DNA of 64,000 nucleotides from Epsilonproteobacteria bacterium tcs-49 (GTDB lineage Bacteria > Campylobacterota > Campylobacteria > Campylobacterales > Sulfurovaceae). Position 1 is the stretch's first letter. Each line of letters begins with the position of its first letter. The stretch is taken from NCBI GenBank assembly GCA_002049495.1, contig LLYS01000003.1:1-64000 (forward strand). Direction: 5' to 3'. Shown piece after piece: positions 29,981-32,803 of this stretch. The notes beneath the pieces are model-generated. The model was not told the origin of the DNA. It made no database searches and saw nothing but the letters and a program-made list of their open reading frames with translations. The position numbers were made by a program, and so were the translations under genes.

Positions 29981-30055
29981 GCGGGAGTAGCTCAGCGGTA
30001 GAGCACGACCTTGCCATGGTCGGGGTCGCGAGTTCGAACCTCGTCTCCCGCTCCA
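29981..30055 (+). tRNA. tRNA-Gly (anticodon GCC)
   Basis: Cloverleaf with acceptor GCGGGAG/CTCCCGC, D-arm AGCTCAGCGGTAGAGC, anticodon loop TTGCCAT (GCC) and T-arm GTTCGAAC. CCA is encoded (30053-30055). First of four tRNA genes on the plus strand. Confidence 0.97.
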
Positions 30056-30093
30056 TTTAAAAATCAAAAAAAACAATTCATAAACAAAGTGTC

Positions 30094-30181
30094 GCCCGGG
30101 TGGTGGAATTGGTAGACACAAGGGACTTAAAATCCCTCGGTCATTGCGACTGTGCCGGTTCAAGTCCGGCCTCGGGCACCA
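30094..30181 (+). tRNA. tRNA-Leu (anticodon TAA)
   Basis: Acceptor GCCCGGG/CTCGGGC, anticodon stem AGGGA/TCCCT with loop CTTAAAA (TAA), a long variable arm, T-loop GTTCAAGTC and encoded CCA (30179-30181). 88 bases with CCA, as expected of a class II tRNA. Confidence 0.97.
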
Positions 30182-30247
30182 TGCTTACAACACCGACGAA
30201 AAAATTCAACCATTTTTTGTTGTAAGGATACCCAAAGCCGGACAAAC

Positions 30248-30321
30248 GGCGGCATAGCCAAGTGGTAAGGCACGGGCCTGCAAAGCCTTGATCCCCGGTT
30301 CGAATCCGGGTGCCGCCTCCA
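30248..30321 (+). tRNA. tRNA-Cys (anticodon GCA)
   Basis: Acceptor GGCGGCA/TGCCGCC, D-arm AGCCAAGTGGTAAGGC, anticodon loop CTGCAAA (GCA), T-arm GGTTCGAATCC and encoded CCA (30319-30321). The outermost anticodon-stem pair is a C-T mismatch. Confidence 0.95.
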
Positions 30322-30337
30322 AATCTTACTACACGTT

Positions 30338-30425
30338 CGGGAGATGGCTGAGTGGTCGAAAGCACCGGTCTTGAAAACCGGCGAGGGTCACACCTCCCAG
30401 GGTTCGAATCCCTGTCTCCCGGCCA
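30338..30425 (+). tRNA. tRNA-Ser (anticodon TGA)
   Basis: Acceptor CGGGAGA/TCTCCCG, anticodon stem CCGGT/ACCGG with loop CTTGAAA (TGA), long variable arm GCGAGGGTCACACCTCCC, T-arm GGTTCGAATCC, encoded CCA (30423-30425). Last tRNA of the cluster. Confidence 0.97.
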
Positions 30426-30612: not shown

Positions 30613-30883
30613 TCACTCTAAAAGCGCTTCAAACTCAACATGCGCAAGTGCCCGTTTTGATCAATGCGGGATCACTTGATTTATTGGTATAGTCAAACAG
30701 CTTATCCAGCCCTTCGTTCAAGCGCTCAGGAGAGATAGGGATAAAAAGTATATTTCTTTTTGTTCTATCGGCTAAGTAGTTTTGCTCTGTTTTATAAGCA
30801 CCGGGATTTTTAGTCGCGCCCCGTCCGGAGGAAAGGAGCTCTTGGTGAGCCGCTTTAATAAGAAAGTATGGTTTGTTTATCAT
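30613..30883 (-). pseudogene. Remnant of a Fic-domain protein gene
   Basis: Reading leftwards from an ATG at 30881-30883, a segment reading SSGRGATKNPGAYKTEQNYL and then ILFIPISPERLNEGLDKL matches the region before the catalytic motif of Fic proteins (RGATKNPG...RTSQNWIGG, PP.P..V). The frame ends after PALIKTG; shifting the frame continues LAHVEFEALLE and then a stop at 30613-30615. Fic proteins normally read LAHVEFE.IHPF.DGNGR here, so the gene has a frameshift, lacks the HPFxxGNGR AMPylation motif, and has lost its N-terminal part. It lies just after the tRNA cluster, a common site of gene gain and loss. Confidence 0.72.
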
Positions 30884-30992
30884 AATAGTAATCTTTTTAT
30901 TGACAAATTGTTTTATTATCAATATATTCATGACAAAGTGTTTTCTTTATCATACTTCGCAAAATACAGTTATCAAATATTTACAATCGTGC

Positions 30993-31003: not shown

Positions 31004-32803
31004 ATGATGATCACCGTTTTAACAGCAATCCTAACCGTTTTACTGATTTCGCGAGCGATCGAGGAGAGTTTTGATATCCCCACGCCGCTGTCGCTGCTTG
31101 CACTTTCCTACCTCAGCAGTCTCTATTTCGGCGATATCTTCGCCGTTTCCAAAGAGCGCTTTAACGAACTTATCTATCTGATGCTGCCCATTATCCTGCT
31201 GCCCGATATTTTAAAACTCTCCCTTCACGAACTGCGCCAACACGCCTTTACCGTTATCTACCTGGCCTTTGCCGCCGTAATCTTTTCCATATTTTTAGGC
31301 ATACTCGTCGGACCGATGCTGCTTGCAAAGTATGAATTAAGCGTGCCGATGCTGCTGACGCTGTTTACTATGCTCATGGCCACCGACGCCATCAGCGTTT
31401 CGACTATTTTCAGCCGCTTCAACCTCCCCGACCGCCTCAAGGTCTACGCCGAGAGCGAAAGCCTTTTTAACGACGTCACCGCTTTGGTGCTGTTTTATTT
31501 TCTTGCCCTGCCCTTGATCAGCGGCGAACAGATCACTTTTGTAAGCATCAACCTCATCCTGCTCAAAGTTCTTTTACTCTCCAGTCTCATCGGGATAGCG
31601 ATCGGTTATCTGGGCTATCTTTTGGTCAAGCTTCTAAGTGAAACCCTGGAGCAGTTTATCATCATCTACCTGGTCGTCGTTATCGCCTTTTTGACCGCGG
31701 AGCATCTGCACGTTTCGGGAATTCTCGCCATCATCTCCTCGGCGATGGCGTTCAAACTCTTTGTGCGCAAAGAGTTGAAAAAACAACCCGAAAAGGCGGT
31801 ACTCAAACCGCGTCAAGACAGGCTGGCGACCCTGATCAACTACCTGTACAAAGTCCCCGCCATCACCAGAAAAGAGTTTCGCTACTTTAAAAAGGAAGCC
31901 TATTTCGTAGGGATCTTCGCCAACGCCGTTATCTTCGTGGTGATGGTACAGGTTTTTGACTTCTCTTTACTGCTGACCTACGCAAAGGAGATCGTTGCGA
32001 TCTTTGCATTGACGACGGCGATCCGCTTTCTCCCCATGCTGGCGTTGACCTCCTGGCAGCGTCTGCCCCTGCGCTGGAGCGGGGTACTGACCTTTTCGGG
32101 TATCAAGGGGGGACTGGCCATCATTATGGCCCACTCCCTGCCCCAGAGCTTTGTACACAAGGAGCTCTTCCTCGCCATCGTCATCGGCCACGTCATTCTC
32201 ACTACCTTTGGCTATACCTTCGTTTTACTGGCGATGATGCGCTTTTACAAGCAGGATTTCGAAAAGGAGAGATACGCCCTGCCGGCGGGGGACGAGTCGC
32301 AGATGCAGGAGAAAATCGCGGGGGATATCCAGTCGATTTTGGAAAAGGATTTGGAGACGGGGGTGTATAACGAAGTGTTGACCAACCGCATCCTCGAACA
32401 GGAGCTCGCCCGCTCCAAGCGCTACAAGCTTGATCTCTCCCTGCTGGCTATCGAGATAAATTTTGCCGCGGACGTAGCGCAGCAAGAGCGTTCAAAACTT
32501 TTGCGCCGCATCAGTGAAGTCACCTTTAAAAGTCTCCGTATCCACGACAGTCTGGGGAAGCTGCGCCGGGAGTGTTTCATGATCATCGCCGTCAACACCC
32601 CCGTAAGCGGAGCGACTATCCTCGCCCAAAGACTGCAACAGACCTACAAACACCGTTTCGGTACCTCCCGGGTGCGCATCGGCATAGGGATAACCGCCCT
32701 GGAATCAACCGATACGAGCGAAGAGCTGCAAGAAAAGCTTGATGACGCACTGGCTCGCACAAGGGAGCGAAAAAACGATCAGAATGTGGAGATAGAGACT
32801 TAG
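31004..32803 (+). CDS. CPA1-type Na+/H+ antiporter fused to a degenerate GGDEF domain
   Basis: A 599-residue protein. Residues 1 to about 430 hold some 12 hydrophobic segments; MLMATDAISVSTIF (TDA in place of the usual ND/TDP motif) and ESLFNDVTALVLF (about 153-165, the ND pair of CPA1/NhaP) support a cation/proton antiporter. Residues about 449-595 match a GGDEF fold: DLETGVYN at 449 (DxLTGLYN), LARSKRY, LSLLAIEINF, then LGKLRRECFMIIAV with RRECF (521-525) replacing GGDEF, and VRIGIGITAL. Catalysis of c-di-GMP is unlikely; nucleotide sensing is possible. The stop overlaps the convergent gene by four bases. Confidence 0.8.
   Translation: MMITVLTAILTVLLISRAIEESFDIPTPLSLLALSYLSSLYFGDIFAVSKERFNELIYLMLPIILLPDILKLSLHELRQHAFTVIYLAFAAVIFSIFLGILVGPMLLAKYELSVPMLLTLFTMLMATDAISVSTIFSRFNLPDRLKVYAESESLFNDVTALVLFYFLALPLISGEQITFVSINLILLKVLLLSSLIGIAIGYLGYLLVKLLSETLEQFIIIYLVVVIAFLTAEHLHVSGILAIISSAMAFKLFVRKELKKQPEKAVLKPRQDRLATLINYLYKVPAITRKEFRYFKKEAYFVGIFANAVIFVVMVQVFDFSLLLTYAKEIVAIFALTTAIRFLPMLALTSWQRLPLRWSGVLTFSGIKGGLAIIMAHSLPQSFVHKELFLAIVIGHVILTTFGYTFVLLAMMRFYKQDFEKERYALPAGDESQMQEKIAGDIQSILEKDLETGVYNEVLTNRILEQELARSKRYKLDLSLLAIEINFAADVAQQERSKLLRRISEVTFKSLRIHDSLGKLRRECFMIIAVNTPVSGATILAQRLQQTYKHRFGTSRVRIGIGITALESTDTSEELQEKLDDALARTRERKNDQNVEIET

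Follow-up and report, generated by a model that had tools for sequence, protein, structure and literature searches.

Architecture of the fused protein

A single gene in the 64,000-nucleotide stretch of Epsilonproteobacteria bacterium tcs-49 DNA analysed here (the window) raises the question of what a cyclase-like domain that has lost its catalytic signature could do at the end of an ion transporter. The initial annotation had read this gene as a CPA1-like Na+/H+ antiporter fused to a degenerate GGDEF domain, and our analysis bears out this reading. The open reading frame (31004-32803, forward strand) starts with ATG and runs uninterrupted through one protein of 599 residues, both domain profiles score above their cut-offs, and 18 further homologues carry the fusion intact. 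The membrane domain (residues 7-408) matches PF00999 with an E-value of 1.5e-26 and 93.6 bits against a gathering cut-off of 26.2, and the scores for TIGR00831 and TIGR00840 lie far below their equivalog cut-offs. The C-terminal domain (residues 449-592) matches PF00990 with an E-value of 7e-8 and 32.8 bits against a cut-off of 23.8, a match shared by all 19 fused proteins, and the window protein also exceeds the cut-off of TIGR00254. As previously described, the domain opens with DLETGVYN (449-456), which aligns with the D-LTG-YNR of intact GGDEF domains, and carries RRECF (521-525) where these have GG[DE]EF. The features are collected in Table 1.

Table 1. Features of the fused antiporter gene (positions refer to the window)
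Feature	Positions	Strand	Basis or remark
Antiporter - pseudo-GGDEF fusion, whole gene, 599 aa	31004..32803	+	
Na_H_Exchanger (PF00999) membrane domain, residues 7-408	31022..32227	+	Profile; fold match to SOS1/NHE1/PaNhaP
T127-D128 motif, antiporter core	31382..31387	+	Invariant in 71/71 fused and unfused homologues
N156-D157 ion/proton-site motif	31469..31474	+	Invariant in 71/71 fused and unfused homologues
FRxYKKE motif (FRYFKKE in the window), residues 292-298	31877..31897	+	Specific to the fused clade; candidate coupling surface
End of last TM helix and linker, residues 409-448	32228..32347	+	Unfused homologues stop about here
Degenerate GGDEF domain (PF00990), residues 449-592	32348..32779	+	Profile, AlphaFold2 model, PDB fold matches
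R470, equivalent of PleD R313 (partner-subunit I-site arginine)	32411..32413	+	R in 17/19
R512-I-H-D515, RxxD of the allosteric c-di-GMP site (PleD R359, D362)	32537..32548	+	17/19
RRECF replacing catalytic GG[DE]EF, residues 521-525	32564..32578	+	Alignment
R543, equivalent of PleD R390	32630..32632	+	R or K in 19/19

Structure prediction led to the same assignment. An AlphaFold2 model of the C-terminal 176 residues, built from an alignment of the 19 homologues, reached a pLDDT of 90.6, and its best matches in the PDB were all GGDEF domains, including a bacteriophytochrome-linked cyclase, SiaD, PleD, WspR, GcbC and DgcB, with query TM-scores of about 0.75-0.86 among the top matches. A profile built from the sequences of the 19 domains alone likewise ranked GGDEF chains first (best 8e-19). 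With a profile match above the gathering cut-off and the predicted fold in agreement, the C-terminal domain is a GGDEF domain by descent; profile search and modelling, the checks proposed initially, thus returned a GGDEF match and a GGDEF fold rather than no match or a different fold. In the full-length model (pLDDT 81.6, pTM 0.64), the membrane part matched SOS1, NHE1, SLC9C1 and PaNhaP, with target TM-scores of about 0.70-0.78 for SOS1, NHE1 and PaNhaP, whose structures comprise hardly more than the TM domain. Because of the pTM of 0.64 and a linker pLDDT below 50, the predicted placement of the antiporter and GGDEF domains relative to each other is unreliable.

Distribution and origin of the fusion

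Including the window protein, we found 19 intact fused homologues, distributed over six families within one order of Campylobacterota. Four belong to the window's own family (175 genomes searched), 11 to family f16, and one each to f4, f6, f8 and f11; a phylum-wide draw of 298 genomes yielded no further fused proteins, and a pattern scan of genome contigs, the one survey that reached beyond Campylobacterota, picks up close relatives only. One of the fused copies is found in a record entitled Campylobacterales bacterium GMC4. With 19 intact fused proteins, a frameshift or assembly artefact is ruled out. A search of plasmid records gave no match covering at least 80% of the query, the matches being to the antiporter part only. 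The window's genome encodes six PF00999 proteins, and the window locus is the only one there that matches the query across both domains.

Close unfused homologues are 435-450 residues long and stop just past the final TM helix, at the point where the fused proteins continue into the added domain. In the membrane-domain tree, the 19 fused proteins separate as a single group from 52 unfused ones (support 100/100), and a single fusion event is enough to account for this. The best explanation is a single gain of a C-terminal GGDEF domain by a CPA1-type antiporter, within Campylobacterota. The branching order inside the fused group is less sure, since the tree is midpoint-rooted and the window protein sits on a long branch. 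The spread is patchy, genus g3 lacking a match in three of its five genomes, and the gene neighbours of the fusion show no conservation beyond close relatives, which also left us with no conserved operon partner as a functional clue. Together, the patchy distribution and the unconserved neighbours suggest loss or transfer in the history of the fused gene.

Loss of the cyclase active site

As a reference for catalytic residues, we used the 32 GGDEF domains with intact motifs encoded in the window's genome, which have 23 nearly invariant columns. Of these 23, each fused protein retains between 0 and 8. The GG[DE]EF motif occurs in none of the 19, the guanine-binding loop around N335/D336 (PleD numbering) is deleted in all of them, and the position of the first metal-binding Asp, occupied by E484 in the window protein, is variable across the group. 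On alignment, then, every one of the 19 fused proteins has a destroyed cyclase site, which extends to the whole clade the missing catalytic signature that had been pointed out for the window protein. Significant matches to PF00990 and TIGR00254 might be taken to mean that the domain has remained active as a diguanylate cyclase, and VCA0965 is indeed an active cyclase with an altered motif, AGDEF (PMC3974145). Here, however, the motif reads RRECF, no homologue retains GG[DE]EF, and the metal, guanine and phosphate residues are gone; on these residues we rejected cyclase activity, to which we give almost no chance.

Retention of the residues of the allosteric c-di-GMP site

Beyond the features given in the initial annotation, we found that the allosteric c-di-GMP site has been kept in sequence. 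In PleD, this inhibition site (I-site) is composed of R359, D362 and R390 from one subunit and R313 from the other (PMC7288161). In the order R313, R359, D362 and R390, these residues align with R470, R512, D515 and R543 of the window protein. The spacing is identical as well, both for R359-D362-E370-R390 versus R512-D515-E523-R543 and for R313-D327 versus R470-E484, the first member of each pair being in PleD numbering. Among the 12 long forms of the fused protein, whose domains share about 43% mean pairwise identity and have 18 fully conserved columns, the quartet of R, R, D and R/K is complete in every member. RxxD is present in 17 of 19 fused proteins, compared with 24 of 32 intact and 3 of 26 other degenerate GGDEF domains of the window's genome, a contrast with a Fisher p of 2e-7 that is overstated because the 19 proteins are related and their agreement does not amount to 19 independent events. 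Among GGDEF domains in general, D515 and, to a lesser extent, R512 occur often and may be retained for structural reasons. Moreover, most of the other fused proteins carry K at position 543, whereas the counterpart in PelD, R402, is essential for binding.

The remaining seven proteins form a short-form subclade (L102, L103, L104, L105, L106, L107 and L080; 543-566 aa), in which the pseudo-GGDEF domain is about 30 residues shorter. Here the quartet is complete in four of seven when K is accepted at 470 and 543, and one quartet residue is lost in the other three. This subclade perhaps represents a second stage of decay or the use of a different ligand.

Judged by its residues, the domain of the window protein is a candidate degenerate-GGDEF receptor for c-di-GMP, with RxxD and the supporting arginines present. 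Loss of the catalytic site together with retention of the I-site is the pattern of the known receptors PelD and BcsE (PMC8461298) and PopA (PMC12564702), degenerate GGDEF proteins that bind c-di-GMP through the I-site and share with the fusion a dead active site and a kept RxxD. They differ from it in that c-di-GMP binding is proven for them and inferred for the fusion, and in that their targets are polysaccharide export, cellulose secretion or proteolysis rather than an ion transporter.

An intact antiporter core and a candidate coupling motif

At the antiporter end of the protein, T127, D128, E150, E152, N156, D157, R341 and K368 do not vary in any of the 71 homologues, fused or unfused, and the core is intact and conserved as for transport. 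Comparing the two groups, we identified 32 positions at which conservation is confined to the fused group. Six of these fall within residues 292-298, forming the motif FRxYKKE, a clustering for which random placement gives a p-value of about 0.0005. No comparable cluster appeared in two unfused control clades, whose lower divergence relative to the fused clade makes them a weak control. The motif is predicted to lie at the cytoplasmic start of TM10, its sidedness following from a predicted 13-TM layout with a cytoplasmic C-terminus. Placed by this layout on the side where the pseudo-GGDEF domain must be, FRxYKKE is a candidate surface for its docking and coupling.

Probable c-di-GMP signalling in the window's genome

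The window's own genome (G000, 2.2 Mb) contains 62 matches to the GGDEF profile, of which 61 exceed the cut-off and 32 have the motif intact. No PilZ match was found in this genome by a search that detects PilZ in five control genomes. With many intact cyclases and no PilZ, c-di-GMP is very probably made in this organism, and its readout must fall to receptors of other types.

A proposed c-di-GMP-controlled antiporter and its alternatives

We propose that the fused protein is a cation/proton antiporter controlled by c-di-GMP, with the pseudo-GGDEF domain as a built-in receptor, and put the probability of this reading at roughly 0.57. The GGDEF domain would have lost its cyclase function and kept the product-inhibition site, becoming a receptor. 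As CPA1-type antiporters work as dimers, two pseudo-GGDEF domains would lie side by side beneath the membrane, where, at high c-di-GMP, a c-di-GMP dimer could bind R512, D515 and R543 of one domain and R470 of the other and clamp the two together. The clamp would act through the linker and the FRxYKKE surface to alter the rate of cation/proton exchange; we infer the sign of this effect and the transported cation, as we do binding, the clamp and the effect itself. Control of ion transport by a cyclic dinucleotide or another nucleotide, as suggested initially, thereby gains a specific form: regulation by c-di-GMP is the best-supported reading, given the I-site quartet, the FRxYKKE motif and a cyclase-rich genome devoid of PilZ, while ligand binding and the effect on transport remain the predicted parts of it. 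The gene neighbourhood lends this reading no support. For the broader idea of a bacterial antiporter family gated directly by c-di-GMP, which would link the switch between sessile and motile life to ion and pH homeostasis, we consider the odds to be even.

The main rival, which we hold to be unlikely, is that the pseudo-GGDEF domain is a structural or dimerisation module, or binds another ligand, and regulates the antiporter without sensing c-di-GMP. Residues outside the I-site, such as K448, Y455, E467, G518, D570 and K578, are equally invariant, the short forms retain the domain yet erode the I-site, and the degenerate GGDEF domains of CC3396 and YybT bind GTP or hydrolyse ATP (PMC7288161). 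Use of GTP or ATP at the old active site is nevertheless improbable here, the substrate loop being deleted in all 19 proteins, and a mere scaffold does not account for the survival of the whole I-site quartet in every one of the 12 long forms. Information might also flow in the reverse direction, with the antiporter sensing ions or pH and the pseudo-GGDEF domain relaying the signal by pairing with active cyclases or phosphodiesterases. Such a sensor fusion is conceivable in light of the GGDEF-like stretch in PDB entries 8qj3 and 8qpf, which are named as an ammonium transporter, and the genome offers many intact GGDEF proteins as partners. We regard it as improbable, however, for a domain that by its residues has no output activity of its own, next to a gene that no conserved signalling partner adjoins and behind an antiporter core fully conserved as for transport. 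Finally, high divergence and the shortening of the domain in some members could point to a decaying passenger without function. This we think very improbable, as all 19 frames are intact, the long forms have 18 fully conserved columns at 43% mean identity, the I-site is conserved and the domain is retained throughout the clade. For the preferred reading, control of the antiporter by c-di-GMP, the prediction pins binding on four named residues.

Relation to known systems

Both halves of the protein are of known kinds, and the novelty is in their combination. The CPA1 antiporters NhaP, NHE1 and plant SOS1 resemble the fusion in fold, PF00999 profile, TD and ND motifs and basic residues, but have no GGDEF domain. 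SLC9C1 and SOS1, among the best full-length fold matches, follow the same plan of a CPA1-type exchanger followed by a cytoplasmic domain of nucleotide-binding type, which in their case is a CNBD (responding to cAMP/cGMP in SLC9C1) unrelated to GGDEF. The ammonium transporter structures 8qj3 and 8qpf, matched by our profile of the fused domains, likewise join a transporter to a GGDEF-family stretch, the transporter being of the Amt rather than the CPA1 family. Ion transporters directly controlled by c-di-AMP are well known, whereas such control by c-di-GMP is, to our knowledge, hardly known. An example of the former is the cation/proton antiporter CpaA of Staphylococcus aureus, also bacterial and also ending in a domain that binds a cyclic dinucleotide (PMC7288161), but with RCK_C and c-di-AMP in place of GGDEF and c-di-GMP. 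In the open-access full-text literature we found no description of a CPA1 antiporter joined to a pseudo-GGDEF domain, and within that scope the architecture is, as had been supposed, undescribed. If our reading is true, c-di-GMP, a messenger of biofilm formation and motility, would have a direct effect on the balance of sodium/potassium or protons, and a class of effector would be added to a genome that has 62 GGDEF matches but lacks a recognisable PilZ protein.

Immediate surroundings of the gene

Just upstream of the antiporter gene lies a cluster of tRNA genes for Gly, Leu, Cys and Ser (29981-30425, forward strand). Between the cluster and the gene, a 98-residue reading frame on the reverse strand (30635-30931) gave a weak Fic/DOC match below the cut-off (E 0.005) and is possibly the remnant of a Fic gene. 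Downstream, a convergent gene matching Gly_transporter (PF03458; 32800-33408, reverse strand) overlaps the stop of the antiporter gene by four bases.
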